Notes: generated by a model from the letters alone, not told the origin. DNA of 27,916 nucleotides from a virus (IMGVR_UViG_3300023210_000166:1-27916); one strand, 5' to 3'; shown: positions 386-24,136, counted from the first letter of the stretch. Numbers and translations are program-made.

Positions 386-386
386 C

Positions 387-4364: not shown

Positions 4365-4403
4365 GTAGCGGCCTCAGAAAAATAAAAGTTTTTGATGAGA
4401 AAG

Positions 4404-4411: not shown

Positions 4412-4445
4412 CATACAGCGGCACTTGAGGAATCGGGTGACGTTT

Positions 4446-4494
4446 TAGGCAAAACTAATAGGCAAAATAATAGGCACATTAACAAGGGAAAACT
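4446..4494 (+). promoter_or_regulatory. gp32 leader with three TAGGCA repeats (candidate autogenous operator)
   Basis: TAGGCA occurs at 4446, 4459 and 4471, a spacing of 13 and 12 nt, separated by A-rich unstructured sequence, and is followed by AAGGGA and the ATG at 4498. T4 gp32 represses its own translation by cooperative binding to an unstructured A/U-rich leader overlapping the ribosome site. The layout fits that mechanism; the operator role is inference. Confidence 0.45.
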
Positions 4495-4497
4495 AAA

Positions 4498-5514: not shown

Positions 5515-5551
5515 ACGAACGACTTTAGAGCGATCTGGTCCAAACGGATAC

Positions 5552-5593
5552 TGGTGGGGAAACTGAAATATATGTAGCCAGCCCACCACTTTT
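5552..5593 (+). other. hairpin between gp32 and uvsX
   Basis: TGGTGGG at 5552-5558 pairs perfectly with CCCACCA at 5582-5588 across a 23-nt loop, followed by CTTTT. This could be a leaky terminator or processing site that lets gp32 be made in excess of UvsX. The long loop and short T run make it weak. Confidence 0.4.
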
Positions 5594-5613
5594 CAACTAT
5601 CAAGGAGTATAAT

Positions 5614-6756: not shown

Positions 6757-6973
6757 TTATTTACCAGAAATGTGGAGCACAGTCAAAGAGTACGTGTCCA
6801 CCAAAGACCGTCAAACGGCAGCAGATCATATCGTTGCGCATCTAGTTGACATGGGCATTGACGACGAGGAACTAACTGATCTTCGTGAAGTCGATACATA
6901 CATGGAAAACGCAGTGTCGGAACATGTCGGCGAAGAAGAAGAATTCTTCGAAGAAGATGGTGAATACGAATAA
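6749..6973 (+). CDS. small acidic protein between uvsX and uvsY
   Basis: 74 aa: MSDYLPEMWSTVKEYVSTKD, then a helical middle with DDEELTDLREVD, and an extremely acidic tail (GEEEEFFEEDGEYE). I have an impression of similar short proteins next to uvsX in marine T4-like phages but no function. The start at 6749 is preceded by GAGGAAGG and overlaps the uvsX stop by 8 nt; the next gene starts on its stop (TAATG). Tight coupling suggests it acts with the recombination proteins, perhaps through its acidic tail. Confidence 0.8.
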   Translation: MSDYLPEMWSTVKEYVSTKDRQTAADHIVAHLVDMGIDDEELTDLREVDTYMENAVSEHVGEEEEFFEEDGEYE

Positions 6974-7443
6974 TGTCATCATCATGGTACCGTCAAGTTA
7001 CTCAGAATCTGGATTTACTTCCAGATTTCTTGGCTTTCTATGAAAAAGAAATCGAGGAATCAACTGACGAAACGGTAGCGAGAGGTATTCTGACACAGCA
7101 ATGTGCCATGATACCCGGAACATCGGAATACAGAATGGGGCAGCTTAAAGACATAGAAGCTGTCCTACAATTCCTCGAACTGAAGGTAAAGCAACTCCGC
7201 AGTGAGTGTTACGTCAAATTCAGTGAACACTACAACAAAGAATTAGCCAACCCAGCAATCCTGAAATACATCGATGGTGATGCTGATGTGGTTGCTCATG
7301 AACTTCTATGTATCGAAGTAGCCAGAGTTAGTGGATTATATCAGGCACGTCTGACAGGGTTAGAGCGCAAACACTATCAAGTAGGCAATGTTGCAAAACT
7401 GCAAACGGCAGGTATGCAAGATGTGTACATAGACATTGAGTGA
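6973..7443 (+). CDS. uvsY: UvsY-like recombination mediator
   Basis: 156 aa (T4 UvsY is 137). UvsY loads UvsX onto gp32-coated single-stranded DNA. The sequence resembles what I recall of cyanophage UvsY: SSWYRQVTQNL at the N-terminus, GTSEYRMGQLKDIEAVL in the middle, FSEHYNKEL, and a C-terminal VGNVAKLQTAGMQD comparable to the T4 GFAIKHIQDM tail. No catalytic motif is expected. Position directly after uvsX supports the call. The start overlaps the previous stop by one base (TAATG). A profile search against UvsY would be decisive. Confidence 0.65.
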   Translation: MSSSWYRQVTQNLDLLPDFLAFYEKEIEESTDETVARGILTQQCAMIPGTSEYRMGQLKDIEAVLQFLELKVKQLRSECYVKFSEHYNKELANPAILKYIDGDADVVAHELLCIEVARVSGLYQARLTGLERKHYQVGNVAKLQTAGMQDVYIDIE

Positions 7444-8230: not shown

Positions 8231-8305
8231 TGGCGCTTCGCACCGGATTTGAACCGGCAACCTAGGCTTTTAGAGGGCCTTGCTCGACCGTTGAGCTTCC
8301 GAAGC
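8231..8305 (-). tRNA. tRNA with CTA anticodon (amber suppressor-like), CCA encoded
   Basis: A 75-nt cloverleaf on the minus strand. Acceptor GCTTCGG/GCGAAGC, D arm GCTC-AACGGTC-GAGC, anticodon arm AGGCC-CTCTAAA-AGCCT, 5-nt variable loop, T arm GCCGG-TTCAAAT-CCGGT, discriminator G, encoded CCA. With standard numbering T33 is followed by CTA at 34-36 and AA at 37-38; the loop CTCTAAA is identical to that of the classic supF amber suppressor. Irregularities: 7-66 is G-G, 31-39 is C-A, 49-65 is G-U, position 8 is A instead of T, and the D loop is short. It may therefore be a poor substrate or decaying. Reading the anticodon as TCT (Arg) would require C33 and a displaced loop. Confidence 0.78.
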
Positions 8306-10432: not shown

Positions 10433-10705
10433 ATGAAACAGGAAATGAAATACATTACGTTTATATCGGGGCACAGTGTGCAGTTTGTGATGTTCCCATT
10501 CACAATCCAGCACTCCAGCATGGCCCAAGATTTGATGTTGAAAAACAGCGATGTATTAGGTGCTGGTTTCGTGAACTTCAAATCTGTAATGGTCTTCGGT
10601 AAGAATACTGCCGTTCCGGATTGTAATGGTCAAAGTATCTCACTAGGCGTACGATCTCGGGAAGACGAAGACACCAAAGTAATCATGAAGTCGATGTTTG
10701 AATAA
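10433..10705 (+). CDS. small hypothetical protein
   Basis: 90 aa. N-terminal MKQEMKYITFISGHSVQFVM suggests a beta-rich fold; the end is charged (SREDEDTKVIMKSMFE). AAGGA lies about 8 nt before ATG 10433; ATG 10445 is a second option. Its 3' end overlaps the convergent island gene by 23 bp. Function not recognised. Confidence 0.75.
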   Translation: MKQEMKYITFISGHSVQFVMFPFTIQHSSMAQDLMLKNSDVLGAGFVNFKSVMVFGKNTAVPDCNGQSISLGVRSREDEDTKVIMKSMFE

Positions 10706-11564
10706 ACGACTTCAATCGATCCCACGGAATACCATCCTTGATCTCTTGAATCGTCCATTCACTGTACGCTATGTCGTTGCACCATTGAGTGCGATCAGGG
10801 CGTTCAGGATTCTCAATCGTTGATAGATCATTCACGTTGTTCCCAACATCCCAACACATACTATGTTCACTCACAAACACCGGCACACCGGCCAACACGG
10901 CCTCTGTAGCAGGGTTGGAGCTATAGCTGACTACTGCCCAAGCACCGCGCAAAGCATTGGTAAAATCGTAGTTATCGTACGTATCAGATATCTTCATAGG
11001 ATTGACTATCATGGTATTCATGAACTCTGCGATGTAATCGGGTTTCACCGGGAAACGTGGGTGTGGTCTGAACACAATGCGTCTTGAACTGCATTTTCTG
11101 ATATCTCTGGCAACATCAATCATCCATTCCTGAACCGGCTTGTTATGCTTCCATTGCTCACTCGCCCCATGCTGCCCACATATGATCACGGCACCATCGT
11201 CGCCACCGGTCTTCCATGGAGAAATCTTCAATCCCAAGGTATCCCATCGATCACTATCACTGTTTTGATTGCCGAAGTCACCATCACGGTTCATTCCATT
11301 GAGACCAATCTTCCATGTCTCATTGCGTTTAAGCCCACCGACTTCAAGGACAATCACTGGCTTATTCTGTGCCCTGTAATGATCCCATACCTGTTTATTG
11401 GGTAACATCCGTCCATTCCATAGGACCGACCAAATGACTGCAACATCAGCATCCATGCTGTTTTGTACAATCTCGTGGTTATCATTGATTAAAGAAGTTG
11501 TGAAAGCGTCCAGAACCTCTTTGCCATTCAATGCCACACTGTTCGGAAACGTAGCTATCTTCAT
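10683..11564 (-). CDS. RPHP-family putative glycosyltransferase, paralogue A
   Basis: 293 aa. First of five paralogues in the window. Family features: an N-terminal Rossmann-like half, a motif around ISPWKTGG (115-121), FRPHP at 165-169, AWAVVSYSS (about 208-216), LAGVPVF (224-230), and a C-terminal block LSTIENPERPDRTQW. The RPHP plus LAGVP layout resembles GT-B capsule-synthesis-type transferases (KpsC/KpsS-like, Capsule_synth), which is why I call it a glycosyltransferase; donor and acceptor are unknown. AGGAG lies just upstream of ATG 11564, preceded by a late promoter arm. Convergent overlap with the gene ending at 10705. Confidence 0.72.
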   Translation of the reverse strand: MKIATFPNSVALNGKEVLDAFTTSLINDNHEIVQNSMDADVAVIWSVLWNGRMLPNKQVWDHYRAQNKPVIVLEVGGLKRNETWKIGLNGMNRDGDFGNQNSDSDRWDTLGLKISPWKTGGDDGAVIICGQHGASEQWKHNKPVQEWMIDVARDIRKCSSRRIVFRPHPRFPVKPDYIAEFMNTMIVNPMKISDTYDNYDFTNALRGAWAVVSYSSNPATEAVLAGVPVFVSEHSMCWDVGNNVNDLSTIENPERPDRTQWCNDIAYSEWTIQEIKDGIPWDRLKSFIQTSTS

Positions 11565-11573
11565 ATGGCTCTC

Positions 11574-11592
11574 CTAAATACAAGGTATTTAT
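11574..11592. promoter_or_regulatory. bidirectional palindromic late promoter
   Basis: TAAATAC, AAG, GTATTTA is a perfect 7+7-bp inverted repeat (11575-11591). Minus strand reads CATAAATAC towards the gene at 11564; plus strand reads CTAAATAC towards the gene at 11605. It is the only intergenic space between the two divergent genes. Confidence 0.65.
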
Positions 11593-11604
11593 GACGGAAA
11601 AAAC

Positions 11605-12126
11605 ATGATCATAGGATTAGAATTTGGATGCGGCGAAGACCCACGAAAACCTGAGTTTGATGGCGTGGATGTTCGCGCTCTACCGACAGTCAAATACGTA
11701 TGTGATGCATGGGATATTCACCAACATGTTGATGCACAAACCGTGGATGAAATATACAGCCGCCACTTCTTTGAACACTTGACCTTCCATCAAGGAGATA
11801 TCACCCTGCAGTCGTGGCTGTCCGTATTAAAACCGGGCGGAATGGTCGAAATGATCGTACCAAATATGCTGCATCATATAGAACAATGGTTGCATATCGA
11901 TAGACAAACGACAGAAGTGAAACGATCAGGGGCATCGCCTTCCACCTATGAGTCAGAAGCAATCAAGGGATTTTGGGGTGGCCAACGCGGCGATTGGGAT
12001 TTCCATAAAAGCGGATATGATTTAGAACTATTAAAAAATACAGTAACGCGAATGGGATATGTAGATTACACAAGCATAAAATCCGCTCCTAAAAACCTGC
12101 ATGTTGTGTTCAGGAAGCCATTGTGA
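11605..12126 (+). CDS. SAM-dependent methyltransferase (type 11-like)
   Basis: 173 aa. SAM-binding motif I LEFGCGEDP at 5-13, acidic end of strand 2 in VDVRALP, SRHFFEHL (52-59) as the post-strand-4 motif, and LKPGGMVEMIVPN. Small class I methyltransferases of this type often act on sugars or lipids in polysaccharide loci; the substrate here is unknown. GGAA lies close to ATG 11605. Overlaps the next gene as GTGA, so the two are coupled. Confidence 0.85.
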   Translation: MIIGLEFGCGEDPRKPEFDGVDVRALPTVKYVCDAWDIHQHVDAQTVDEIYSRHFFEHLTFHQGDITLQSWLSVLKPGGMVEMIVPNMLHHIEQWLHIDRQTTEVKRSGASPSTYESEAIKGFWGGQRGDWDFHKSGYDLELLKNTVTRMGYVDYTSIKSAPKNLHVVFRKPL

Positions 12127-13025
12127 AAGTGGGCGTCTTCACCGTCACTTCGATGGAAAATGATCATTTTCAATATGTACTTGAGCAATTTTACAAAGGG
12201 ATGAAAACTGACGTTAATTGTTTTATCACGTCGTCACCAACGTTGGTCCCGTGTGACATTGCTATAGTCATGGGTTCGTTTAAGCCCAATAGAACACAGC
12301 CACATCATGTATTGAAACAAGAATTAATCGATAACAATATCCCTATCGTTTACATAGAGTCGCCATTGTTGGGAAGATCGCTAGACACCACATTTCCGTA
12401 TTTTCGCGTGGGTTTGAACGGAATTTTGCCAGATGAGCACTGCTTCGATTGGAAGAACAAACCTAGTGACCGATGGGAAAAAATTAAATCGGCAATGAAC
12501 TTGAACGTTCTCCCATGGCGAACAACTGGAGAATACATATCAGTGGTGCTCCAGTTGCCGAATGATTCATCATTGCGCGGAGCCAATATTACAAAATGGG
12601 CCGCACAAGCAGTTAATGAAATTCGACATCATAGTGATATGGACATCGTTATTCGACCTCATCCACTACGGGACCGGTATAACTTCAAGCACATAGATAA
12701 ATCAATAGCGACCAACAACAACGTGTATATAGAAGATGTGAATGTGCCGTTAAAACAACACTTGGAGAAATGCTGGTGTTCGGTTGCATACGTGTCTGGT
12801 ATGTCGGTAGACTCATTATTGGCCGGTGTGCCCACCATAGGATGCAACAGCGGAAGCTTTGTGTATGACTTATCGCATGATATATCGACGGTGACAAACC
12901 CTCCAAAACCGGATAGGGCACAATGGCTGAACGATCTGAGCTACGTACAATGGTCGATTCCTGAGATGGCGTCGGGGGAAGCATGGAACCATATAAGGAA
13001 TCATTATGATAAGCTATGTATATAG
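12123..13025 (+). CDS. RPHP-family putative glycosyltransferase, paralogue B
   Basis: 300 aa with a GTG start behind AGGAAG. Shares with paralogue A the LPWRTTGE motif (129-136), IRPHP at 177-181, CWCSVAYVSGMS, LLAGVPTIG and a C-terminal TNPPKPDRAQW...LSYVQW. All the family's proposed active-site elements are intact. The next gene starts 20 bp before its end with its own AGGA, giving a coupled methyltransferase, transferase, pyruvyl transferase, methyltransferase operon. Confidence 0.72.
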   Translation: MKVGVFTVTSMENDHFQYVLEQFYKGMKTDVNCFITSSPTLVPCDIAIVMGSFKPNRTQPHHVLKQELIDNNIPIVYIESPLLGRSLDTTFPYFRVGLNGILPDEHCFDWKNKPSDRWEKIKSAMNLNVLPWRTTGEYISVVLQLPNDSSLRGANITKWAAQAVNEIRHHSDMDIVIRPHPLRDRYNFKHIDKSIATNNNVYIEDVNVPLKQHLEKCWCSVAYVSGMSVDSLLAGVPTIGCNSGSFVYDLSHDISTVTNPPKPDRAQWLNDLSYVQWSIPEMASGEAWNHIRNHYDKLCI

Positions 13026-13797
13026 AATGGACGAAAACAACGTTGGTGATTGGAATTGCTCACCCCACACGTATTTTGATTTGGGACCAAAGAAGCTATT
13101 CACCATAGGCGACATAGGAGGAACTTTCGATCAGATATCAGATACTGTTGTATTTGGTGGTGGCGGAATGTTGATCCCGCCGCGAGGTAAAAATGCCGAA
13201 AAAATCCACGAAATACCAAGGCAAATGTTCGAACTTATGCAAACAAATAGAACTTATATTGGATGGGGTATAGGGCATAATGAAGGGGATAAACGAGGGC
13301 AAACCAAATGGGACGATGAATTCACTTACCCATCATTTGATCGTTTCAAGTTGTACGGCCTTCGGGATTATGATAAAGGCCACCGTTGGGTTCCTTGTGT
13401 TAGTTGTATGTATTCTGGATTAGACCGCAATTATGAAATCAATCACGATATCGTGGTGTATGAGCACCGACGAATTCCCATGTATTTGTCGGAGTTCCCG
13501 ACCTTGACCAATGAACATAACAACCTAGCGGAGATCATAGAATTCTTGGGTTCCGGCGAAACCGTCATCACCAATTCGTATCATGGTGCATATTGGGCAT
13601 CCATGCTTGGGCGAAAGGTTATCGCAATGCCATGGTCCTCTAAGTTTTGTGCAATGCGACACGCTCCAATGTTAGCACATCCGAGTGAATGGAAAGATGC
13701 AATCATCAAAGCACACACGTATCCAGATGCGTTGGAAGAATGCCGAGATGCAAATATTAAATTTTCGAATGAGGTCAGGGAGATAATCAATGCCTGA
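13006..13797 (+). CDS. polysaccharide pyruvyl transferase family protein
   Basis: 263 aa. N-terminal NNVGDWNCSPHTYF, glycine loop VVFGGGGML (48-56), IGWGIGHN (84-91) and C-terminal TNSYHGAYWASMLGRKVIAM (188-207), the order expected in the PS_pyruv_trans family. Members transfer pyruvyl ketals or act as GT-B-like glycan enzymes in exopolysaccharide pathways. AAGGA sits 6-7 nt before ATG 13006. The location among transferases and methyltransferases supports a glycan role. Confidence 0.87.
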   Translation: MISYVYRMDENNVGDWNCSPHTYFDLGPKKLFTIGDIGGTFDQISDTVVFGGGGMLIPPRGKNAEKIHEIPRQMFELMQTNRTYIGWGIGHNEGDKRGQTKWDDEFTYPSFDRFKLYGLRDYDKGHRWVPCVSCMYSGLDRNYEINHDIVVYEHRRIPMYLSEFPTLTNEHNNLAEIIEFLGSGETVITNSYHGAYWASMLGRKVIAMPWSSKFCAMRHAPMLAHPSEWKDAIIKAHTYPDALEECRDANIKFSNEVREIINA

Positions 13798-14299
13798 TCC
13801 GAACAGTGAGCTACATAGATGGAAAAAACTACCCGGAACCGTGCCGGTGTGGGATGAGAGAAATACATTCATTGCAAATCTAATACCAGATCATTCGACT
13901 GTGTTGGATATTGGGGCAGGATCGCAGACTCTCCGATTACATCTTCCATCATGTGAGTACACTGCGGTTGATATCATAACAATGATTCCCGAAACCATCC
14001 ATGCCGATTTCAACAATAATATTATCCCCGAATTACCGGCCACATATGACGTTGTTGTATGTAGCGGGGTACTAGAATACATAGTAGATTGTCGGTCATT
14101 CGTCAATCAAATATCAACATGGGGAAATTCATTGATCTGTTCGTATGCCAGCACAACACACAACCCTGCGGTGGACCGTGCCAAACACGGCTGGCAACAT
14201 TCAATGACTGAGGCCGAATTCATTAATTTATTTCACGATACCGACCATGTGGTATCGCATTGGAAAACTCATACTATTGTGATGACAAATACTGTTTGA
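13790..14299 (+). CDS. SAM-dependent methyltransferase
   Basis: 169 aa. Motif I TVLDIGAGSQ at 37-46, YTAVDI (57-62) as the acidic strand-2 end, YDVVVCSGVLEYIVD (86-100) as motif IV region. Class I fold. AGGGAG 7 nt upstream; overlaps the previous gene by 8 nt. The 3' end overlaps convergent paralogue C by 26 bp. Substrate unknown; sugar O-methylation fits the neighbourhood. Confidence 0.82.
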   Translation: MPDPNSELHRWKKLPGTVPVWDERNTFIANLIPDHSTVLDIGAGSQTLRLHLPSCEYTAVDIITMIPETIHADFNNNIIPELPATYDVVVCSGVLEYIVDCRSFVNQISTWGNSLICSYASTTHNPAVDRAKHGWQHSMTEAEFINLFHDTDHVVSHWKTHTIVMTNTV

Positions 14300-15251
14300 A
14301 TTTCCGCCAAGGAACGCCGCTTGAAAACTCATTGAGATTATACATCATGTTGCACAAATCGTGTGCCCATTGCTCACGCTCATAAAACGCTGGCTGTTCG
14401 ATTTTTGATAAATCGGTATCACATACCCCATCCCCGAATGTTTTGATTGGCGATAACATAAAGGTGGGAATACCCGCCGCAATAGTGTCAGTGCATGCCG
14501 ATGAGTTATAAGTTACCACGGCCCACGCATTCTCCAAGTCTTTGAAGATTGAATCTCCTTTGGAGAAATCTATGGACACCCGCACATTTTTGAATTCGCT
14601 GTAATCGTACTCATCGGGCAATAGCGACAACAATTCTTCGTATGATTCTGGCATGCCCAGCTTGCCCTTTTGTAAGACATATTTGGTGAACACACCGGGA
14701 TGTGGCCGAACAATAATTCTGCGATTGGTGTGTTCGCGAATTTCTCTTATCCATTGCTTACTCAGTTCAACCGAATCCACGCTGTTCATTGACCACCCTT
14801 TGCTCTGAGTGCATACGACAATGTGTTGTTTCGGAGAACCATCTCGCCACGGCTTGAGCTTGATATCAAAGGTACTGGAGAACGCATCCCATCTACTGGA
14901 ATCGGCGATTTGACCCAAAAATTCCCCCGTAGCCGTAGGGTTTCCAAGTGCAACTCTATAATGAACATTAGTGTCTGGAATAACATCGAGCGTTCCCCGA
15001 AAAAAACCACCATCCAAGCAAATGATCTGCTTGCTTTTGCCGTGCATGTTCATCAAAATGCGTCGAGGATTATCAACATCATCTTCACGAGAACCGCCGA
15101 AGATCACTGCTATTTTTGATTTTGAAAGATTGCTACTTACCATATGTGGGGTATCGCCCGAAGCTTTGATGCCTTCTGCAAACCGTCTAAGCAATTCATT
15201 GGTGATGAATTTTTTAGGCCCAGTAGAGTTCGTGATGATATCCACGTCCAT
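14274..15251 (-). CDS. RPHP-family putative glycosyltransferase, paralogue C
   Basis: 325 aa, the longest paralogue, with an insert after the RPHP site. Elements: KLKPWRDGS (131-139), VRPHP at 181-185, AWAVVTYNSSA, IAAGIPTFM, and the C-terminal LSKIEQP..YEREQW block. The start codon overlaps the stop of the upstream methyltransferase (TAATG). Ends in TAG, overlapping the convergent methyltransferase gene. Function by analogy with paralogue A. Confidence 0.72.
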   Translation of the reverse strand: MDVDIITNSTGPKKFITNELLRRFAEGIKASGDTPHMVSSNLSKSKIAVIFGGSREDDVDNPRRILMNMHGKSKQIICLDGGFFRGTLDVIPDTNVHYRVALGNPTATGEFLGQIADSSRWDAFSSTFDIKLKPWRDGSPKQHIVVCTQSKGWSMNSVDSVELSKQWIREIREHTNRRIIVRPHPGVFTKYVLQKGKLGMPESYEELLSLLPDEYDYSEFKNVRVSIDFSKGDSIFKDLENAWAVVTYNSSACTDTIAAGIPTFMLSPIKTFGDGVCDTDLSKIEQPAFYEREQWAHDLCNMMYNLNEFSSGVPWRKFKQYLSSQ

Positions 15252-15745
15252 TAGATGGTACCATAAATAGCGAAGCTGTACGCTAAGTCCCGTTCACTAC
15301 AAAAAACATTCTGAACACCCAACTCTTTAAACAGTTCAGTCATTATCATGGGGGTCAGTGTGTGCAAATGAAGTTTAGTCGGCATTTCATTGGGTTGCCA
15401 ATACAGACAATCTGGATGGGGAAGGTACAGAAAGATAGTGCCACCCTTTTTGATCTTGCTTACCCATCCTGCCAATGTCGCCTGATAGTCAGGCAAATGT
15501 TCCAAGCAGTGTGAACTGAAAATGTAATCAAACCCGCTATCGACTTCTGGTAAATTATATGCATCGTACTCGTCATCCAACTTGATATCGATAGGCACAC
15601 TGCCCGGCAACGCCCATTCTCGTTGACTGCATCCGATATCCAATCCTATTCCATTACATAGCTTGGTAGCATACGGGAATGCATACTGAGAGTGAAATCC
15701 CTCAGTGATAAATTTGGGAACTGTTTGGTGCTTAAATTTGATCAT
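15251..15745 (-). CDS. SAM-dependent methyltransferase
   Basis: 164 aa. GIGLDIGCSQREW (32-44) is motif I, PIDI (51-54) the strand-2 acidic end, FDYIFSSHCLEHLPDY (72-87) the post-motif region, and KKGGTIFLYLPHPD the usual strand 5. Part of a minus operon joined by TAATG junctions on both sides. Probably a glycan methylase. Confidence 0.85.
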   Translation of the reverse strand: MIKFKHQTVPKFITEGFHSQYAFPYATKLCNGIGLDIGCSQREWALPGSVPIDIKLDDEYDAYNLPEVDSGFDYIFSSHCLEHLPDYQATLAGWVSKIKKGGTIFLYLPHPDCLYWQPNEMPTKLHLHTLTPMIMTELFKELGVQNVFCSERDLAYSFAIYGTI

Positions 15746-16341
15746 TAGTGAATGACTTCAACAATATGAATAGCTCCACCCTTGAGATGAGCAAACTCGT
15801 CGCCATGCGGATGAATGATAACTTCAACGTCTTTCAGATTATCAACGACTTGATTACACCCGAAAACATCAGTGTCTGGGTAATTCATGTAGTAGTCATC
15901 CAACACGACAACCTTGCACCCGACGAGGTGGCTGTAATCGCTGCGGATGGTTTCTACGCTGTGGCCACCGTCGAGGAACACGAAATCGTCTGAGCGGTCT
16001 GTCAGCGTTTCTCGCGTATCTCCCATGATTAATTCAAAGGTGAACTTCATTGTGCCACTTGCTTGTAAAAACTTCTCATTAATGCGCTCAACTGTCGATG
16101 GCGGCTTGACCAGTCCATTGACCTTTTTGCTGCCCTCCAGCCAATTGAATTCACGCTTGTGTACCTCGATATCATCCACGCTGAACAGATCATAGCCCGT
16201 GTAGTGAACAGTTTCATGATGGTTCAACGCTGCCTTGATCATCTTGAGGGCGCGTTCGCCGTTCCAAGTACCGACTTCAACCAATGTCTTTGGCTTGTGC
16301 TCATTGATAATGTCGATGATTTTGTCATATCTATTCGTCAT
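15745..16341 (-). CDS. class I SAM methyltransferase (Methyltransf_24-like)
   Basis: 198 aa. LVEVGTWNGERALKM (20-34) is the SAM loop, YTGYDLFS (47-54) follows strand 2, and FVFLDGGHSVETIRSDY (120-136) then VVVLDDYY is typical of the Methyltransf_24/CmcI-like group, with a metal-type aspartate in LDGGH. Often found in sugar modification clusters. The ATG has AAAGGA about 8 nt upstream and overlaps the end of the GT9-like gene; a GTAAATAC just upstream falls inside that gene. Confidence 0.85.
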   Translation of the reverse strand: MTNRYDKIIDIINEHKPKTLVEVGTWNGERALKMIKAALNHHETVHYTGYDLFSVDDIEVHKREFNWLEGSKKVNGLVKPPSTVERINEKFLQASGTMKFTFELIMGDTRETLTDRSDDFVFLDGGHSVETIRSDYSHLVGCKVVVLDDYYMNYPDTDVFGCNQVVDNLKDVEVIIHPHGDEFAHLKGGAIHIVEVIH

Positions 16342-17092
16342 AATGTTTTTCCTTTAGTGTATTTACCGCCTCGATTACATCGTGGACTTTTATTTGATCC
16401 ATGCACCATTTACAATGATCGCATTCATAATGGCTACCACACGGAGATAATTCATGCTCTGTGTAAAAATTTATGTTGGTCTCGTACCCAGTGACGTTGG
16501 GTGCCGATAACCCGCCAAATATCGCGACTGATTGTTTACCTAATGCGGTTGCGGCATGTATTGTTCCTCCCTCAACACCGACGTGAAACTTGGCCAATGA
16601 CATCACCGCAAATGCCTCTCTTATATGACCGGTGTTGATCCGCACAACGCCTTTAAGTGTCGGGGTGTGCGCCAGCCCACATTGGACAAAACAAATATCT
16701 GGGAAAGCATCTACCACAGCCTGATAATTATGAAATCCCCATTCTTTGTTGACACTGTAGACAGACCGATCTTTCAGGTTTGGTTCAATGGTGACAAACT
16801 TGTCCGGTACCAATCCACGTGCTTTTATCATCTCATCGCCAGTGGGATATAGCTCTCCCGGCTTTGGATTCAATGGGACCAGTTTGGAATAACTACCTTT
16901 GTCATTTTGCCCTTTCCCAGTGGTATACGGCCTCGGTCTAATCTGAACCATAATACAAGACGGTGTGATCGCGTTACTCACATTTGGGTTATTGTCATAC
17001 ACAGAAGACCACTTCACTGTTGATCCATTAACCGGAACGATGTCTAGGGCGGGGTTTTCCAGTTTCAATCGCTTCAGCTTCGCAGTCAGCAT
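16331..17092 (-). CDS. GT9-like (heptosyltransferase-type) glycosyltransferase, second of a tandem pair
   Basis: About 253 aa from ATG 17092. Homologous to its upstream neighbour throughout: PALDIVPVNGSTVKW, SVYDNNPNVS, IRPRPYT, FVTIEPNLKDRSVYSVNKEW, FVGVEGGTIHAA-type glycine/histidine region, IFGGLSAPNVTGYETNINFY, and a Cys-rich end CGSHYECDHCKWC. The glycine loop GIGDDIM lies before ATG 17092, at 17107, where the neighbour has ATG but this gene has ATA. ATA 17107 or a non-standard start is therefore as plausible as ATG 17092 (which has AGGTG 8 nt upstream). Stop TAG. Confidence 0.8.
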   Translation of the reverse strand: MLTAKLKRLKLENPALDIVPVNGSTVKWSSVYDNNPNVSNAITPSCIMVQIRPRPYTTGKGQNDKGSYSKLVPLNPKPGELYPTGDEMIKARGLVPDKFVTIEPNLKDRSVYSVNKEWGFHNYQAVVDAFPDICFVQCGLAHTPTLKGVVRINTGHIREAFAVMSLAKFHVGVEGGTIHAATALGKQSVAIFGGLSAPNVTGYETNINFYTEHELSPCGSHYECDHCKWCMDQIKVHDVIEAVNTLKEKHYDE

Positions 17093-17103
17093 TATGTCAT
17101 CAC

Positions 17104-17886
17104 CTATTCCGATTGTATCAACTCTTTGACTTCTCGAATAACCTGATCCGCCGTGAGGGATTTCATTACCTCTTTGCAATGTGAACATTCATAATGACGA
17201 CCGCATGGCGATTCTGGATGTTCGCCATATACATTGATATGAAGATCATAACCAGTGGCACTGGGAGAACTCACTCCACCGAACAATACCACACCGCCCT
17301 TGCCCAGCGCAGCAGCCGCATGATGCATTCCGCCCTCGTACCCTATGAACATTGATGCTAATGATAAAACAGCAAATGCCTCTCGCACTCTTTTAGTATA
17401 GATCATAGTCACATTATCCAACACTACTGAATCGTCCGATTTACCATTACCGCATTGCACGAAGTTGCTATCCGGAAATGCGTCAACAACGCTTTGCCAT
17501 TTTTTCGCACTCCATTGTTTATTATCCGAGTATATGCCGGGTTTTTTGTAATTGGGTTCGATGTAAATAAAATCGGCAGCCGGTGCTACCTGCTTGGCGC
17601 GTTCGATTTCATCATCGGTTAGGTATATGTGTCCCGGTACCAGATGTTGATCATTGAATGCCGTATACGTTCCTGAACTATTTTCCCCGAAATATTTTAT
17701 GTATGGCCGTGGCTTCACCTCATAATACATCGTGTCTTTGGCTGGATCGTGATCAAATATTGGATTGTTACTATACGCTGCCGACACATCAAGTTTTTTC
17801 AACCCACCCGCCGGTACTATATTCATATGCGGATATTCTTGTTGCAAACGTGCCAGTTTGGCCGTCAACATTATATCATCACCCAT
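17104..17886 (-). CDS. GT9-like (heptosyltransferase-type) glycosyltransferase, first of a tandem pair
   Basis: 260 aa. MGDDIMLTAKLARLQQEYP begins at the glycine loop that in GT9 proteins follows the first strand, so the protein is N-terminally short. C-terminal donor-site features: FIGYEGGMHHAAAALGK, LFGGVSSPSATGYD, and CGRHYECSHCK. GT9 enzymes such as WaaC/WaaF move heptose from ADP-heptose in LPS synthesis; the donor here is not determinable. AAGGA is 12 nt before ATG 17886, rather far, and the residues KTIG upstream are conserved in the paralogue as TIG, so the true start may be upstream. Stop TAG. Confidence 0.82.
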   Translation of the reverse strand: MGDDIMLTAKLARLQQEYPHMNIVPAGGLKKLDVSAAYSNNPIFDHDPAKDTMYYEVKPRPYIKYFGENSSGTYTAFNDQHLVPGHIYLTDDEIERAKQVAPAADFIYIEPNYKKPGIYSDNKQWSAKKWQSVVDAFPDSNFVQCGNGKSDDSVVLDNVTMIYTKRVREAFAVLSLASMFIGYEGGMHHAAAALGKGGVVLFGGVSSPSATGYDLHINVYGEHPESPCGRHYECSHCKEVMKSLTADQVIREVKELIQSE

Positions 17887-17910
17887 TCCGATAGTCTTTC
17901 CTTATAACAG

Positions 17911-17950
17911 TATAAATACAATGTAGGCCGCGATCTGTAGTTCCGCCTAC
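17911..17950 (+). promoter_or_regulatory. late promoter TATAAATA plus 5' hairpin for the HNH gene
   Basis: Exact TATAAATA at 17911-17918, followed by C. The predicted start, about 17924, coincides with the 5' arm of a hairpin GTAGGC (17923-17928) / GCCTAC (17945-17950). The transcript would thus begin with a stem, which in phage mRNAs can protect the 5' end. Confidence 0.65.
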
Positions 17951-17974
17951 TCTAATGTCTTGGAGGACACCAGC

Positions 17975-18613
17975 ATGAACATATTTATCATCAATAAATA
18001 CACGAGAATCTATTGTAACATAATAGAACGCGCCAAATCAAGAAAACCATTGCCACGAAATAAAACAGAACTCCACCATATTTTACCCAAAGCGTTATAC
18101 CCATCGTGTGCCAATTTAACAAAGCATAAATGGAATGGGGTATATCTAACATTCAAAGAACATTTTGTATGTCATTTATTGCTGATAAAAATGCTGGAAG
18201 GTGAGAATAAGTCTAAAATGTCATTCGCCCTACACAGAATGAAAATGTCTAACATTGGTACCAATCGCATAACATCTCCGTATATGTACGAACTATTTCG
18301 ACAACGAGTGTGTTTTGGCCATTCAACTAAAACCAAAAACACAATGAGCATCAATCGTTCTGGAGACCGCAATAGTTTTTATGGAAAACGCCATACTAAT
18401 GAAAGCCGAGGTAGAATGGGAAAATCGAGGTATGGTTCGGATAATCCAAATTTTGGAAGAACCGTTTCCGACGAGAATAAAGATAAGATACGAAGAGCAA
18501 ATACTGGAAGAAAAGCGAATAGAGTGTGCTGTGTAATATGTCAAAAAGACTTACCAGTAAATATCTTTGCGGCATTTCATGGTGACAAATGTACGTCACC
18601 GAACCCCATTTAA
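17975..18613 (+). CDS. HNH homing endonuclease with NUMOD3 repeats
   Basis: 212 aa. Free-standing endonuclease that spreads its own gene by cutting cognate DNA. N-terminal YTRIYCNIIERAKSR, then the HNH core TELHHILPKAL (31-41), N47, and LTFKEHFVCHLL (58-69). Two NUMOD3-type DNA-binding repeats follow (GDRNSFYGKRHTNES about 129-143; GSDNPNFGRTVSDE about 153-166), then a Cys/His end (CCVICQ...H...C). ATG 17975 has GGAGG 8 nt upstream; ATG 17960 lacks one. It has its own late promoter and is more AT-rich than its neighbours, suggesting insertion between blocks of the island. Confidence 0.92.
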   Translation: MNIFIINKYTRIYCNIIERAKSRKPLPRNKTELHHILPKALYPSCANLTKHKWNGVYLTFKEHFVCHLLLIKMLEGENKSKMSFALHRMKMSNIGTNRITSPYMYELFRQRVCFGHSTKTKNTMSINRSGDRNSFYGKRHTNESRGRMGKSRYGSDNPNFGRTVSDENKDKIRRANTGRKANRVCCVICQKDLPVNIFAAFHGDKCTSPNPI

Positions 18614-19429
18614 TATTTCCCAAGCAAATCCCGATTTCATCTCATCTAAATTGAATTGGTTATACGACAAGTGCCGAAACCATTTCTCAACGTCATCACT
18701 ATAATGCGGCTTCTCGATGTTCGACAATTTTGTATTACCCAGCGTGAACGCAGCAGAGTGTTCCGACACAAACGCAGGAACACCATTCATCACTGCATCC
18801 CCAGCAACATTGCTTTGGTGTGTCACGACCGCCCAGCAGTCTTTTAAATCTTCGCTCAATGGAACCCGATTCTTGATCTTCCGTGATCGTTTTAACAATG
18901 TGGTCCCATGCACATCCGGTGTAAGATATCCAGCACTGTCCAGAATTGCCATCTCGGCAGGTTTCTCCCGAACAATAATAGGACGATCCGTATGTTTTCT
19001 AAGAGTTTGAATTGTTTGTTCAGTCCATTCATGGATGTTAAAGAATATACGGAATCCCTGAGTGGGTGGACATATCAAAATGTGACTGCCAGATCGTGTC
19101 CAATCTTTTACGGTGATATCGAATTCACGTAATCTGTCATCTGGGTAATCATTCAGTTCGGTGGTTTGTAGATTGTTTTTGGTGATACGGAAATAATCTC
19201 GCTTATTGCCAAGGTAGCAGTTGTCGCCGTAATAATACTCATGTCCTTGGTCCATACATGCTTGTAGAATCAAACTTGATCCACGTAGAATGCCCCAAAT
19301 AACCACAGGCTCTTTTGGTAATCCATTCATCAGGAAATACGACATCGGCTTGAACTCACCGTCACACCCTGTCATAAAACTCTTGAGTACTTCGTCTCCG
19401 TGTGTGGTTAATTGCTGATACGCTATCAT
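18596..19429 (-). CDS. variant RPHP-family protein (REKP), paralogue D
   Basis: 277 aa. Same layout as A-C: ITVKDWTRSGSHILICPP, IIVREKP (151-157), LKDCWAVVTHQSN, VMNGVPAFVS, and LSNIEKPHYSDDVEKW at the end. The RPHP motif is replaced by REKP, and LAGVP by MNGVP. It groups with paralogue E (RYKP), with which it shares DYPDDRLREF/RLPDDRWKAH before the tryptophan motif. It may have altered chemistry or be a non-catalytic partner. ATGA overlap with the TylF-like gene; GAGGTG precedes the start. Confidence 0.68.
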   Translation of the reverse strand: MIAYQQLTTHGDEVLKSFMTGCDGEFKPMSYFLMNGLPKEPVVIWGILRGSSLILQACMDQGHEYYYGDNCYLGNKRDYFRITKNNLQTTELNDYPDDRLREFDITVKDWTRSGSHILICPPTQGFRIFFNIHEWTEQTIQTLRKHTDRPIIVREKPAEMAILDSAGYLTPDVHGTTLLKRSRKIKNRVPLSEDLKDCWAVVTHQSNVAGDAVMNGVPAFVSEHSAAFTLGNTKLSNIEKPHYSDDVEKWFRHLSYNQFNLDEMKSGFAWEILNGVR

Positions 19430-20085
19430 GTAATCACCTCGAACGTAACCTTCTTTGTTCGTCCAGTTACGCAGATTGTTTTAAGTGTTCGGTTATATGT
19501 TTCCATCCACTCTTTCAATGCTTTCCATTCGTGCTCTTCCCATGTGAAATAGTGCTTCTCGCTTGCCACGTCTTTTGGTGGTTCCGAGAACAACTCATCA
19601 AACATCAAAAACATGCCGGGTTCAATTTTGTCGTTCATCAAATCTAACACGGTTTTGGTGCTACTATATAAATCACAGTCGATGTGTAAAATTCCAATAC
19701 GCTCTACTGCCTCTGGGGTAGTCAACCACACTGGCAACGAATCTTCGAACCATCCTTTTACCAAGGAAACGTTTGGTTCGGTGTGGGGCATTTCTTCGCC
19801 TTCATCCAGCGCAAAAGAACCTTTCGGGTGTCTTATATATGATGCGTCGGGATTCTGAACCCAATCTTCTGGCAATCCTTCGAATGAGTCAAAACCTGTG
19901 AAGTTTCTCTTGGGATCATGCTTCGCCATCATGTTGATGGATTTACACCGATGAACCCCGAATTCCAAGAATTGTCCCGGCCCTGTGTGAGCCATTACGT
20001 AATCGTAATATCTCGATCTACCTTGTATCTCAACGCCATCAGCCTTGATGGCGGCAACTGTGATGTTTGTGAAATCTAAAATCAT
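19426..20085 (-). CDS. TylF/macrocin O-methyltransferase-like protein
   Basis: 219 aa from ATG 20085. FLEFGVHRCKSINMMA (39-54) is the SAM loop, FTGFDSFEGLPEDW (62-75) is the strongly conserved TylF-family segment, and ILHIDCDLYSSTKTVLD (132-148) contains the metal-binding aspartates. TylF methylates a deoxysugar hydroxyl, so sugar O-methylation is a reasonable inference. The longer frame to 20226 is rejected: it crosses the promoter and the divergent gene. Only about 2 nt separate the predicted late transcript start from the ATG. Confidence 0.88.
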   Translation of the reverse strand: MILDFTNITVAAIKADGVEIQGRSRYYDYVMAHTGPGQFLEFGVHRCKSINMMAKHDPKRNFTGFDSFEGLPEDWVQNPDASYIRHPKGSFALDEGEEMPHTEPNVSLVKGWFEDSLPVWLTTPEAVERIGILHIDCDLYSSTKTVLDLMNDKIEPGMFLMFDELFSEPPKDVASEKHYFTWEEHEWKALKEWMETYNRTLKTICVTGRTKKVTFEVIT

Positions 20086-20092
20086 GATACCA

Positions 20093-20104
20093 TATTTATA
20101 AATA
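20093..20104. promoter_or_regulatory. bidirectional overlapping TATAAATA late promoters
   Basis: TATTTATAAATA is a perfect 12-bp palindrome that contains an exact TATAAATA on each strand (plus 20097-20104, minus 20093-20100). Predicted starts are near 20110 (plus) and 20087 (minus), at or beside the ATGs 20108/20111 and 20085. No Shine-Dalgarno is seen on either side, so both transcripts look leaderless. Confidence 0.7.
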
Positions 20105-20107
20105 CGA

Positions 20108-20992
20108 ATGATGTCACTTATTATATACGCACCCGACAACAAACCAGAATCAAAATGCTGGCAGGTATTCGATCCCGTCATGAATGGTGGCTGGCCAGAA
20201 TCCGACATTAACGTTATCTCAAACACATCAGCAGTTCGTTATCACGGAACCTGCATGATGTGGGGGTTTGTTGGTCAAAATGAATCAATATATAGACGAG
20301 CACTCGAAACTCACTCAATATTTAGTAGTGCTCCTACTTGTCATGTGTACTTCACTGACATGCCATACTTCGGTAGATATTCCGCCACCAACCCAGATGC
20401 CGAATGCTATTGGCGAATGATCCCAAATGCCTTGCACGTAAATCACCAAGACAGTAGATTGCCAGACGATAGATGGAAAGCTCACGGAATAGAGCTACAG
20501 GACTGGAAAACAAACGGAGATCATATATTACTATGCCCATCATCTGAGACGATGACACGACACGTATATGGATATGGGGTAGGAGATTGGATTCTCAGAA
20601 CCATGGCAACACTCAGCACACATACTGATCGACCAATTCATGTTAGATACAAACCAAGAGGAAACGGAACTTCAGGTCCGGACGCCGCAACTATCCCACT
20701 GGAAGATGATCTGAAAAATTGTCACGCTGTTGTCACCGGTATGAGTATCGCTGCAGTTCAGGCAGTGGTGGCGGGTGTGCCGGTGTTTTCTCACGACGAT
20801 GCCCCTACCGCGCCGGTAGGGTTAACTAATTTGAGTGGCATTGAAGCACCACGATATCCTGATCGACAGCCGTGGTTGAACACGTTATGTCATTATCAGT
20901 ATACCCCATCTGAAATAAAATCGGGCATGGCGTACGAATTTTTACAAAAATCTCTTGACAGGTCAACAAAATATGGTATTGTCCCATCATAA
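20108..20992 (+). CDS. variant RPHP-family protein (RYKP), paralogue E
   Basis: 294 aa (or 293 from ATG 20111). IELQDWKTNGDHILLCPSS (128-146), IHVRYKP (177-183), LKNCHAVVTGMS, VVAGVPVFS, LSGIEAPRYPDRQPW at the end. The family's RPHP is RYKP. No ribosome site precedes the double ATG; the late promoter ends 3 nt upstream, so translation may begin on a leaderless message. An early-type promoter for the next gene lies inside its 3' end. Confidence 0.68.
   Translation: MMSLIIYAPDNKPESKCWQVFDPVMNGGWPESDINVISNTSAVRYHGTCMMWGFVGQNESIYRRALETHSIFSSAPTCHVYFTDMPYFGRYSATNPDAECYWRMIPNALHVNHQDSRLPDDRWKAHGIELQDWKTNGDHILLCPSSETMTRHVYGYGVGDWILRTMATLSTHTDRPIHVRYKPRGNGTSGPDAATIPLEDDLKNCHAVVTGMSIAAVQAVVAGVPVFSHDDAPTAPVGLTNLSGIEAPRYPDRQPWLNTLCHYQYTPSEIKSGMAYEFLQKSLDRSTKYGIVPS
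20955..20982 (+). promoter_or_regulatory. sigma70-type promoter for the small gene at 21013
   Basis: TTGACA, 16-nt spacer ending in TGG, TATTGT. Same spacing and extended -10 as the early modules but with a different leader. TTGAC-AG-GTCAA forms a dyad over the -35 box. Confidence 0.75.
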
Positions 20993-21012: not shown

Positions 21013-21225
21013 ATGTACACACTTTCAGCGAATATCGATGGCGATGCTCAGACGATTATGTCGAGTGACCTTGACGACCTTCATTGCAATATCGAAGGCA
21101 TGCTCGAAGCTGCCGAAGAATACGGCATGTCAATCGAAGACCTTAGTTTGGTCGATGAAAATGGCGATAGCGCCATGAATGACGAAATGGTAGAGTATGC
21201 CGCAACGATTATGGCAAACCTCTAA
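21013..21225 (+). CDS. small acidic hypothetical protein
   Basis: 70 aa, very acidic: MYTLSANIDGDAQTIMSSDL, then LEAAEEYGMSIEDLSLVDEN and MVEYAATIMANL. GGGAGA lies about 8 nt upstream. Driven by its own sigma70-type promoter inside the preceding gene, so it is probably early, unlike the late island genes around it. Its stop overlaps the convergent radical SAM stop by 4 bp. Function unknown. Confidence 0.78.
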   Translation: MYTLSANIDGDAQTIMSSDLDDLHCNIEGMLEAAEEYGMSIEDLSLVDENGDSAMNDEMVEYAATIMANL

Positions 21226-22151
21226 TAAATCACACACTTCTCACAGATAGTGCCGCTTACATCTAGTTTCAGATGTGCGGCACGAAGTTCTTGAAACTTC
21301 TCTGAATGCCAAGCGTCCATGAATGAAATCTCATTTAGGTCGCCCATGTTGAAACGATTGTCATGATCAAAACAACAAGCACTCAGGCGACCATCAAAGC
21401 TGATGTGGCCTTCTGTGAAAATACTCCAACAAGGTAGAGGATCACGTAACGCATCCAAGCGTCCGCGATTACCTTGTACGAATTCCCATTCATCGTTTTC
21501 AATTAAAGCAGCTTGATTGTACAGCGGCAATGCGTACAGTTCGTCTACGTATGGCTCAAGATCAGCGATGTATTCATTGATACGTTCGCCCTGCTCACCA
21601 TCGTATGCGATGTATGATCCGTATAAACCACATTCGTAACCGCCCTCTTCGCGGACAGCATGGGCAGCTTTCACGTTCTCGGCAATCTTACTGAACAATG
21701 AACCCTTTACTTGTGCGATCTCTTTGAACTGTTCTTCGTCCGCATAGTTCAGGCTGAACTTCAATGAGTCCAATCCAGCTTCCATGCATTCCTTCACTTT
21801 CTCTGGTGTGCTCAATGATCCATTGGTGGTCAAGAACACATAAGGATATCCACAATCTTCTTTTGCGTATCGAATAGCTTCTGGTAGCCATTTGCATAAA
21901 AATGATTCACCGAGATAAAATACACCAAGCTCTTCAACTCCAGCTTCACGCATCTCTTTAACGATACGCTTGAAATCCTCTTGTTTCATTTCATTGACTG
22001 TACGTAGACGATTGTTGTGTGCACAAAACGAACATGCGAAGTTGCAGCGTCCTGTAATCTCAATCTTCACACTCTTCGGTGCTGGCGGGGCAGGAACTCC
22101 GTATTCTTCTGTTAATCCTGTAATGGCGTCAATTCTGTCTGTAATTCCCAT
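21222..22151 (-). CDS. radical SAM protein with SPASM-type C-terminal cysteines
   Basis: 309 aa. GRCNFACSFCAHN gives the CxxxCxxC cluster motif (C36, C40, C43) that binds the SAM-cleaving 4Fe-4S cluster. Downstream VFYLGESFL and FLTTNGS fit the radical SAM barrel. The end holds PCWSIF, ACCFDHDNRFNMGDL and CEKC, the pattern of a SPASM auxiliary-cluster domain. SPASM proteins modify peptides, sugars or other substrates. In this island a sugar or glycopeptide is possible, but substrate is unknown. AGGAG overlaps the upstream gene's TAG stop; start ATG 22151. Confidence 0.92.
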   Translation of the reverse strand: MGITDRIDAITGLTEEYGVPAPPAPKSVKIEITGRCNFACSFCAHNNRLRTVNEMKQEDFKRIVKEMREAGVEELGVFYLGESFLCKWLPEAIRYAKEDCGYPYVFLTTNGSLSTPEKVKECMEAGLDSLKFSLNYADEEQFKEIAQVKGSLFSKIAENVKAAHAVREEGGYECGLYGSYIAYDGEQGERINEYIADLEPYVDELYALPLYNQAALIENDEWEFVQGNRGRLDALRDPLPCWSIFTEGHISFDGRLSACCFDHDNRFNMGDLNEISFMDAWHSEKFQELRAAHLKLDVSGTICEKCVIY

Positions 22152-22159: not shown

Positions 22160-22918
22160 CTAGTTAATGATGTCGGTATCCTTGAACGCACGTCCAAAGG
22201 TGCTATTGAATTCTGCCTTCCAATGATCCGCGTAATCTACTTGTTGGCAATCCCTGAAAATGGGAGCACCAAGCGTATGATGGATATTGAATGGTAGGGT
22301 ATCTGGCATATCTTCTTCGCCCACCAAGAAATTATACTCCAGTGGAATACCACCGATCTCTTCTTCTTTGAGCCATTCGAATCTATGCAAGAATTTTGGT
22401 TCAGCATTCGTGACCACTTTTGGTGTCAATGCTTTGTTGCTTTCGTGTGCGCAATTGTAAATCACAACTGCGGACCATTGTTTCTTCGGGTATGAGGTTT
22501 GCGGCAAGCCGCCCATCTTGTCGGGTGTCTTCGGCACGTAATCATGTTTCGGAACTTGCACAGCAAAGCTCGGATCAGCTAAATCGAACATTTCCTTGAT
22601 ATCACGGGTTATTAGCATATCGCAATCAAAGAAGATGCCAGTTCCGCTGTAGTTCATCAGGAACGGTACCAAGAAGCGTGTAATGCTGAATTGAGTTGAC
22701 CCGTTCGGATCAATTGGCCGCATGAACCGGCTGTAAGCTAAAAGCTCGTCCCGAATGATTGGAATGATTTTAATGTCTTCTCGTGTGTTTTGGCGAATAC
22801 TGTTCGCAAGCATCTTTGCTGCAGCATCTTCAAGTGGATCGTATCCGATAAACACTACTCTATCGGCGTCTTTGGCGTGTTCTAATCTATCAAAAAATAC
22901 TGAATCCATTGGCTGCAT
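22160..22918 (-). CDS. GT8-like glycosyltransferase (DxD, GT-A fold)
   Basis: 252 aa. VVFIGYDPLEDAAAKMLANS at the N-terminus, FSITRFLVPFLMNY (77-90), and GTGIFFDCDMLITRDI (92-107), where D98 and D100 form the metal-binding DxD; later IYNCAHES and YNFLVGEED fit acceptor-side motifs. GT8-type transferases build LPS or glycoprotein glycans from nucleotide sugars. AGGA is about 8 nt before ATG 22918. It forms a short operon with the radical SAM gene and is divergent from the cupin. Stop TAG. Confidence 0.85.
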   Translation of the reverse strand: MQPMDSVFFDRLEHAKDADRVVFIGYDPLEDAAAKMLANSIRQNTREDIKIIPIIRDELLAYSRFMRPIDPNGSTQFSITRFLVPFLMNYSGTGIFFDCDMLITRDIKEMFDLADPSFAVQVPKHDYVPKTPDKMGGLPQTSYPKKQWSAVVIYNCAHESNKALTPKVVTNAEPKFLHRFEWLKEEEIGGIPLEYNFLVGEEDMPDTLPFNIHHTLGAPIFRDCQQVDYADHWKAEFNSTFGRAFKDTDIIN

Positions 22919-22940: not shown

Positions 22941-22962
22941 TGTTGATAAATATTTATCAACA
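22941..22962. promoter_or_regulatory. 22-bp perfect palindrome with back-to-back late promoters
   Basis: The palindrome is centred on ATAAATATTTAT and flanked by TGTTG/CAACA. It places GATAAATA on each strand. Predicted plus start about 22958, giving a short leader with AAGGAG before ATG 22978; predicted minus start about 22945, leader about 27 nt before ATG 22918. Could also be an operator for a dimeric repressor. Confidence 0.68.
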
Positions 22963-22977: not shown

Positions 22978-23322
22978 ATGAAACAAGGCAAGATTTGGGG
23001 GAAAACAGAATGTTTATTACAGAATTCGTTCGTTGAGTTCCATAGAATTGACATAAATCAAGGAACACAATGTTCGATGCATAAGCATGAACACAAATGG
23101 AATGCCTTCTACGTGGTATCGGGCGAACTTGACATTGAAGTACGAAAGAACAACTACGACCTCACGGATACCACCAAACTTATGGATGGAGATTTCACTA
23201 CGGTAACACCGGGTGAGTATCATCGATTCGTGGCCCATACTGATGTCGTGGCGTTTGAAATTTATTATCCCGAAGGATTAACCGAAGACATCGTGAGGGA
23301 ATCAGTGGGTGGCCAAACATAA
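22978..23322 (+). CDS. cupin-domain protein
   Basis: 114 aa from ATG 22978 behind AAGGAG. The metal-site motif CSMHKHEHKWNAFYVVSGE (32-50) provides histidines and a glutamate; the second cupin motif is TVTPGEYHRF. Small cupins include sugar isomerases/epimerases and mannose-6-phosphate isomerase type proteins. A role in making or modifying a sugar donor is plausible; WxGKTE....SFVE at the N-terminus is not diagnostic. Overlaps the next gene by 14 nt. Confidence 0.87.
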   Translation: MKQGKIWGKTECLLQNSFVEFHRIDINQGTQCSMHKHEHKWNAFYVVSGELDIEVRKNNYDLTDTTKLMDGDFTTVTPGEYHRFVAHTDVVAFEIYYPEGLTEDIVRESVGGQT

Positions 23323-24136
23323 AGACGAATCCAAGCTGCACAAAACAGAACGTGCATTGAATAAAGAAGCCGCCAGACAAAAGAAGGGCATCAACATCGC
23401 GTGTGTGTGGGCGGGTGGTGCCTACCCGATAGAATACGTGTATAAACTGTACCATATGGTTCATCGGAATTCGAGATCATTTGCGTGGAACTTCAATATC
23501 TTTACCGACAACGAGGTAGACTTCTCTGGATTCGATTCTGGAATTATGGCAAAGCGTCCAATTAAAATACACAAGTTGGCTAAGTTACCAAGCCCACATA
23601 TGAGATTATGGTGGCATAAGATGCAACTGTTCAGTATGTCAAACGAATGGAAGTATGATACCACTCTGTATTTTGATCTCGATGTGGTAATCATAAGCAA
23701 GCTGTTACCATTCATCGAGCATCAACGATCCAACTTTTGCATCCTGCAAGATTTCAACCGCCAAGGTAATCCTACGTATAATAAATGCAACTCAAGCATC
23801 ATGCGTTGGAAAGTACAAGATCATTTTGATATGTATGCAAAATGGACGGATGAATGCAACAGAAACGTAATGCATCTCCACGGCGACCAAGACTGGATCA
23901 CCGATCATCTTGGTGACGACAGAGTGTGGTGGCCACGCGAATGGGCATTGAGTTACAAGTGGGAATTAAACCACGGCGGATTGAAGCACATGGGACCAAT
24001 GCCATTCACTCCGGACATGTATCATACATACGGAACAGGACTGAACCCGCCAAAGGAATGTAGCGTTATTGTATTCCATGGCAAGCCCGATCCACACGAT
24101 CTCACTGACAAGGTAATTCTCGATAACTGGAAATAG
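23309..24136 (+). CDS. DxD glycosyltransferase-like protein
   Basis: 275 aa with a GTG start inside the cupin 3' end, GAGGGA nearby. After a basic N-terminus (KHKDESKLHKTERALNKEAARQKKG) comes NIACVWAGGAYPIEYVYKL, then TTLYFDLDVVI (118-128) with D123 and D125, CNSSIMRWK, GDQDWITDHL and VIVFHGKPDPHDL. This order fits GT-A fold transferases where the final FHG.P..HD helps bind diphosphate. The donor is unknown. Stop TAG. Last gene of the island. Confidence 0.85.
   Translation: MAKHKDESKLHKTERALNKEAARQKKGINIACVWAGGAYPIEYVYKLYHMVHRNSRSFAWNFNIFTDNEVDFSGFDSGIMAKRPIKIHKLAKLPSPHMRLWWHKMQLFSMSNEWKYDTTLYFDLDVVIISKLLPFIEHQRSNFCILQDFNRQGNPTYNKCNSSIMRWKVQDHFDMYAKWTDECNRNVMHLHGDQDWITDHLGDDRVWWPREWALSYKWELNHGGLKHMGPMPFTPDMYHTYGTGLNPPKECSVIVFHGKPDPHDLTDKVILDNWK

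Follow-up and report, generated by a model that had tools for sequence, protein, structure and literature searches.

Retaining Kdo transferases are the glycosyltransferases for which a double-displacement mechanism has been demonstrated, and their evolutionary origin has been called unclear (PMC9587256, PMC10148158). The nucleophile of these enzymes is held in a QxxxD motif (PMC10148158, PMC9587256), and sialyl- and Kdo-transferases bind CMP at a (K/R)xHP motif (PMC12887879). We compared these enzymes with five genes, A to E, in a 27.9 kb viral record (27,916 nucleotides; hereafter, the window). The window derives from a marine phage with a bacterial host, which was read as T4-like because positions 345-7443 contain terminase, gp32, UvsX and a UvsY-like gene. 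All five open reading frames were intact. Around them are genes for methyltransferases (four SAM methyltransferase-like and one TylF-like), glycosyltransferases (two GT9-like and one GT8-like), a pyruvyl transferase, a cupin and a radical SAM enzyme (Table 1). The gene map agrees with a first-pass annotation that had placed the family on both strands and in several operons. The start of the TylF-like gene was moved from 20226 to the ATG at 20085. Additionally, a NUMOD3-bearing, HNH-like homing endonuclease (17960-18613, plus strand) was found within the glycan island, adjoining gene D.

Table 1. Features of the glycan island and its surroundings (window positions).
Feature	Position	Strand	Description
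Gene A	10683-11564	-	293 aa, class A (E74, QxxxS, RPHP), predicted Kdo-transferase fold
NATAAATA late-promoter-like motif	11586-11593	-	21 nt before gene A
SAM methyltransferase-like	11605-12126	+	Methyltransf_23, E 4e-4, below cut-off; overlaps gene B start
Gene B	12123-13025	+	300 aa, class B; E, QLPND, RPHP, Ser (full retaining Kdo-transferase residue set)
Polysaccharide pyruvyl transferase-like	13006-13797	+	PF04230, 28.6 bits (cut-off 25.3); overlaps gene B end
SAM methyltransferase	13790-14299	+	PF13489, 39.7 bits
Gene C	14274-15251	-	325 aa, class C (D74, Q131 without catalytic Asp, RPHP)
SAM methyltransferase	15251-15745	-	PF13489; upstream of gene C
SAM methyltransferase	15745-16341	-	PF13578
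GT9 (heptosyltransferase)-like, tandem pair no. 1	16331-17188	-	PF01075, 23.0 bits (cut-off 22)
GT9 (heptosyltransferase)-like, tandem pair no. 2	17104-17886	-	PF01075, 27.8 bits
Gene D	18596-19429	-	277 aa, class K (D74, no QxxxD, REKP); 4-nt overlap with TylF gene end
TylF-like O-methyltransferase	19426-20085	-	PF05711, 57.5 bits; upstream of gene D
Divergent TATAAATA late-promoter motif pair	20093-20104	both	Minus towards TylF-D, plus towards gene E
Gene E	20108-20992	+	294 aa, class K (D74, no QxxxD, RYKP), second K subtype
Radical SAM/SPASM enzyme	21222-22151	-	PF04055, PF13186
GT8-like glycosyltransferase	22160-22918	-	PHROG 28018
Divergent GATAAATA late-promoter motif pair	22945-22958	both	Towards GT8-like gene and cupin
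Sugar-type cupin	22978-23322	+	PF07883
Glycosyltransferase	23309-24136	+	PHROG 1962

As evident from the all-against-all comparison, all ten pairs of the five proteins were related well beyond chance, with sequence identities of 22-34%, BLASTP E values of 1e-6 to 5e-34 and local alignment scores 19 to 57 SD above shuffles (200 shuffles per pair). The alignment of the five proteins contained 17 invariant columns; R166 and P169 (R-x-H/K-P), S216, G226-x-P228, W261, E274 and G278 were invariant, and W117 of the PW/DW motif was common to all five. Together with the single fold described below, these scores uphold the earlier description of five diverged paralogues of one family. The duplicates are old rather than recent, as had been proposed, given their low identity; a recent local duplication was rejected, since D and E each cluster with copies from other phages. 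The shared motifs listed in the first-pass annotation are real, although their wording needs small corrections: R-x-x-P occurs in all five as R-x-H-P in A to C and R-x-K-P in D and E, gene B departs from both the IE and the AWAVV wording, and gene D lacks the Arg before QW in the C-terminal R.QW block. Genes A to E are thus five lineages of one phage-borne family with common ancestry. The five proteins had no PHROG match, and their Pfam matches were all sub-threshold (Capsule_synth for B, 14.5 of 20 bits; DUF6716 for C and E). A profile of 252 relatives did not find a sixth copy in the window.

AlphaFold (AF2) models were made for gene A (input alignment of 66 members; pLDDT 95.1) and gene D (pLDDT 86, poor at residues 167-184). 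The top PDB matches of both models in Foldseek and VIA were the retaining β-Kdo transferases KpsC (GT107), WbbB (GT99) and KrkA (GT140). For the gene A model, VIA Z-scores ranged from 14.8 to 13.3 for KpsC, 12.7 to 12.3 for WbbB and 11.4 to 11.1 for KrkA; generic GT-B enzymes start at 10.8, and KrkA alone would not stand out. For the gene D model, which represents the most diverged class, the first 26 Foldseek matches were all KpsC, WbbB or KrkA, and the VIA Z-scores were 11.3-8.8, the lowest rows tying with generic GT-B enzymes. Identity between the family and KpsC in the structural alignments was 9-17%. A profile search of the PDB returned WbbB as the sole match, spanning the RxHP and Ser sites with a non-significant E of about 2, and pairwise hhalign against bacterial KpsC/KpsS gave probabilities of 88-95% (with pairwise E-values). 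The A and D models and the hhalign results bear out the earlier suggestion of a KpsC/KpsS-type fold: as modelled, the family carries the modified GT-B fold of the retaining β-Kdo transferases KpsC, WbbB and KrkA, with B, C and E assigned by homology to A and D. We also observed that several Tetraselmis virus 1 proteins in BFVD match the gene A model, two of which are named capsule polysaccharide biosynthesis protein; the fold is therefore also present in a giant algal virus.

Upon mapping of residues to KpsC by hhalign, E74 corresponded to the acid of EDGF, position 135 to the Asp of QxxxD and H168 to the His of HP; the Ser that binds phosphate also had its counterpart in KpsC. Among 153 non-redundant family members, R166 and S216 were unchanged in all 153, position 74, which aligns with the general base Glu66 in the EDGF of KpsC, was always an acid (E or D), and position 168 was His in 104 and Lys in 49. 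In contrast, the QxxxD Asp was missing from 137 of the 153 rows. Classes were assigned by active-site residues and afterwards checked on a tree with a KpsC/KpsS outgroup. In class A, Ser replaced the KpsC nucleophile (42/42), while classes B and X kept the catalytic Asp (16/16 rows). Class C had Gly, Asn or a gap at this position (46/46), and class K lacked QxxxD and had RxK (49/49), with the Gln absent in nearly all members and the RxHP His absent in all 49; the alignment of the QxxxD region is less certain for these two classes. Within the window, the nucleophile position is Asp in B (QLPND) and Ser in A; C has neither Asp nor Glu, and D and E have no such motif. The CMP-binding motif was found in A, B and C (RPHP) but not in D (REKP) or E (RYKP). 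In the tree, the family formed one clade against KpsC/KpsS with 100/100 support; A, C, K and X were each one clade, and B formed two neighbouring basal clades. As the Asp is present both in the outgroup and on the deep B and X branches, its loss appears to be the simpler reading, the deep branches being long. A more specific scenario is a natural series in marine phages, in which A and the C+K branch each gave up the nucleophile and became inverting or differently fuelled transferases, a canonical B or X enzyme sometimes stayed beside these forms, and the classes build a Kdo-type virion glycan in series; taken as a whole, this scenario is rather unlikely.

The four genes without the nucleophile might work by another mechanism, use another donor or have no catalytic activity. 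If classes A, C and K used other nucleotide sugars on the same fold instead of CMP-ulosonic acids, most of the set would work without Kdo chemistry; the missing Asp in the three classes, the additional loss of Gln and His in all or nearly all of K and the lack of KdsA and KdsB in the window agree with this idea, which we hold to be possible but somewhat doubtful, as RxHP is strictly kept in A and C together with the acid and the Ser, and the closest folds all use CMP-Kdo. It is improbable that some copies are non-catalytic partners of active ones. Although four of the five lost the nucleophile, R166, S216, the acid at position 74 and the class-specific residues are invariant or nearly so across 42-49 diverged sequences per class, and a dead domain would hardly keep them.

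The family was found widely in other phage genomes. A pattern scan of viral contigs gave 463 matching stretches, and the named carriers include Pelagibacter phage Mosig (two copies), Caulobacter phages (two copies in CcrColossus, directly after tail genes) and a podovirus from a spring. In a scan of loci anchored on uvsW, which was independent of the family, 46 of the 50 loci with enough sequence held it. After dereplication (n = 49), 28 loci were A+C+K and 10 were A+C+K+X; relatives usually carry one A, one C and one K, with B or X optional. Class content was non-redundant in 41 of 42 independent loci with at least three copies, while label shuffling expects 10.5; these dereplicated counts refer to the 49- and 42-locus sets, as the locus counts of the class-residue survey are redundant. 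Since the uvsW-anchored marine phage loci carry one gene per class, the set in the window is inherited and is not a local expansion. Of the earlier claim of a phage-specific expansion in one locus, the first half nearly holds, but the expansion is not specific to the locus, as related phages inherit the classes as a set. The A+B+C+K+K content of the window was the only one of its kind and the fullest set seen, and its genes lie on both strands, in contrast to the usual K-C-A order on one strand.

Single-protein scans of viral contigs gave two loci for gene C and none for gene B because the family is too diverged for exact peptide patterns, and a GTDB scan with gene A alone gave nothing. The class A alignment gave six GTDB matches; at least three of these (L123, L124 and L125/L126, the last two being from one genome) have uvs genes of the T4 type, and the matches therefore resemble binned phage contigs. 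Among 289 genomes drawn, there were two further real occurrences, a pair beside phage-like genes (L289) and a K-type gene (L290). In L289, the two adjacent members (627-2241; 6.3 Mb genome) are followed by methyltransferase- and GT9-like ORFs, an arrangement reminiscent of CcrColossus. In L290, the class K-like gene (1327-2103; 1.6 Mb bacterial genome) adjoins a purH-like ORF. We found no description of the family in phages in the open literature, which is weak evidence of novelty.

In many relatives, class K carries a GT8-like homologue at its N-terminus within a single fused ORF (564-601 aa), which links the family to the assembly of glycans. KdsA and KdsB were absent from the window contig. 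In loci L107 and L075, KdsA scores above the equivalog cut-off and the KdsB-like protein falls below its cut-off; in L107 these genes share an island with family members, and in L123 KdsB overlaps a K gene by 26 nt. KdsB was present in 10 of 23 family-positive and none of 3 family-negative loci (p = 0.26), a comparison confounded with shared lineage. KdsA and KdsB were thus rejected as proof of the donor: all 34 KdsB loci with uvsW and upstream sequence have the family, but so do 46 of the 50 uvsW loci overall. As a separate observation, L107 (1-20672) holds a carbamoyltransferase-like ORF, a methyltransferase-sulfotransferase-like fusion, KdsA, KdsB and three family members, the names other than KdsA and KdsB being read from sequence.

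The motif NATAAATA is known as the late promoter of T4-like cyanophages (PMC2984593). With the exact core ATAAATA, it occurred 12 times in the window against 5.15 expected, and 2 of 100 shuffles were as high. When distances were counted from hand-picked gene starts, 10 of the 12 sites lay at most 100 nt upstream of a right-strand start, where random placement expects 0.7; the share for all-AT 7-mers was 15%. The motif precedes A, the TylF-D pair, E, the GT8-like gene and the cupin, but the 100 nt directly upstream of B and of C contained no copy. For gene E and a structural gene at 2009, only 3-4 nt separate the motif from the ATG, and the true starts may be further down. One-mismatch forms of TATAAATA were not enriched, in contrast to the exact core, and a sigma-70 scan of the window found 34 sites against 35.8 expected, which is no excess. 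In relatives, the motif stands at operon heads: it precedes 42 of 83 cytidylyltransferase-cupin operon heads (10% expected) and none of uvsX, uvsY or uvsW, while genes A, C and K themselves are preceded no more often than by chance. As the motif stands before the transferase operons and not before uvsX, uvsY or uvsW, late expression with virion glycosylation is favoured over early host modification. A virion acceptor remains a presumption, as late-type motifs also precede non-structural genes in the window, namely gp32 and the HNH gene. We also noted a tRNA with a CUA anticodon and encoded CCA (8231-8305, minus strand; Pyl in ARAGORN, Rfam tRNA 48 bits) 24 nt behind a GATAAATA motif, which is possibly a late-expressed amber suppressor. 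TAG ends 8 of the 34 window genes. Recoding of TAG in genes B and C through a suppressor tRNA was unsupported, as both end in TAG with further stops soon after.

Glycosyltransferase islands of pelagimyophages and cyanophages are usually taken to modify host LPS or capsule (PMC7029224, PMC2984593), which would block superinfection by other phages, and genes of the Kdo, GT9, pyruvyl- and sulfotransferase types belong to envelope glycans. This function is a real possibility for the present set, but falls short of an even prospect: the operons have late rather than early promoter motifs, none of the window ORFs examined was recognisable as a flippase, polymerase or exporter, and the CcrColossus copies follow tail genes.

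Phage T4 glucosylates its DNA with its own transferases. A similar role in glycosylating phage DNA is highly improbable for this family, whose fold and neighbours point to acidic surface glycans, and T4-like cyanophages give no sign of DNA glycosylation (PMC2984593).

Overall, we give slightly better than even odds (about 0.5) to the reading that a Kdo-transferase-fold set acts late in infection to build an acidic, decorated oligosaccharide, with virion proteins as the most likely acceptor. Gene B would be a retaining enzyme that works through an Asp adduct and takes Kdo or a similar ulosonic acid from a CMP-sugar. CMP-activated sugars would also be bound by A and C, where a single-step transfer, in which the conserved acid would serve as base, makes inversion likely. 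In the K proteins D and E, Lys would take the place of His at the phosphate, and another nucleotide sugar may be used. The members of the non-redundant set would act one after another, together with the GT8, GT9, pyruvyl- and methyltransferases, and a multi-step glycan fits the class content of the set. The donor, acceptor, stereochemistry and order of action are as we infer them here; the product is probably an unusual sugar coat, more likely on the phage particle than on the host. The reading predicts glycosylated virions and offers an annotation for a family present in hundreds of viral contig stretches, for whose five window members PHROGs have no match.

Compared with the glycosyltransferase islands of pelagimyophages and cyanomyophages, the locus is similar in that T4-like marine phages carry envelope-type sugar genes; in the portions of those reports available, GT8 and LPS genes are named, but not the family of A to E or its catalytic classes (PMC7029224, PMC2984593). 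The C-terminal half of the family resembles KpsS/Capsule_synth (PF05159) with hhalign probabilities of 91-94%, although no window protein reached the cut-off of 20 bits (B, 14.5; others not listed). The WbbB GT99 and KrkA GT140 modules were the next-best folds; their solved modules are longer, at about 345-395 residues, and most of the phage family has not retained their Asp nucleophile. The KpsC modules (GT107), the retaining β-Kdo transferases of group 2 capsules, were the best fold match for A and D. Their acid, HP and Ser sites align with the family, and gene B also shares the QxxxD Asp; in contrast, the phage proteins are single modules of 277-325 aa, A, C, D and E lack the nucleophile, and the phage family is a separate clade. 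The family thus stands next to the retaining Kdo transferases with forms that have and forms that lack the nucleophile in one genome, and the step between the two mechanisms is therefore directly assayable.
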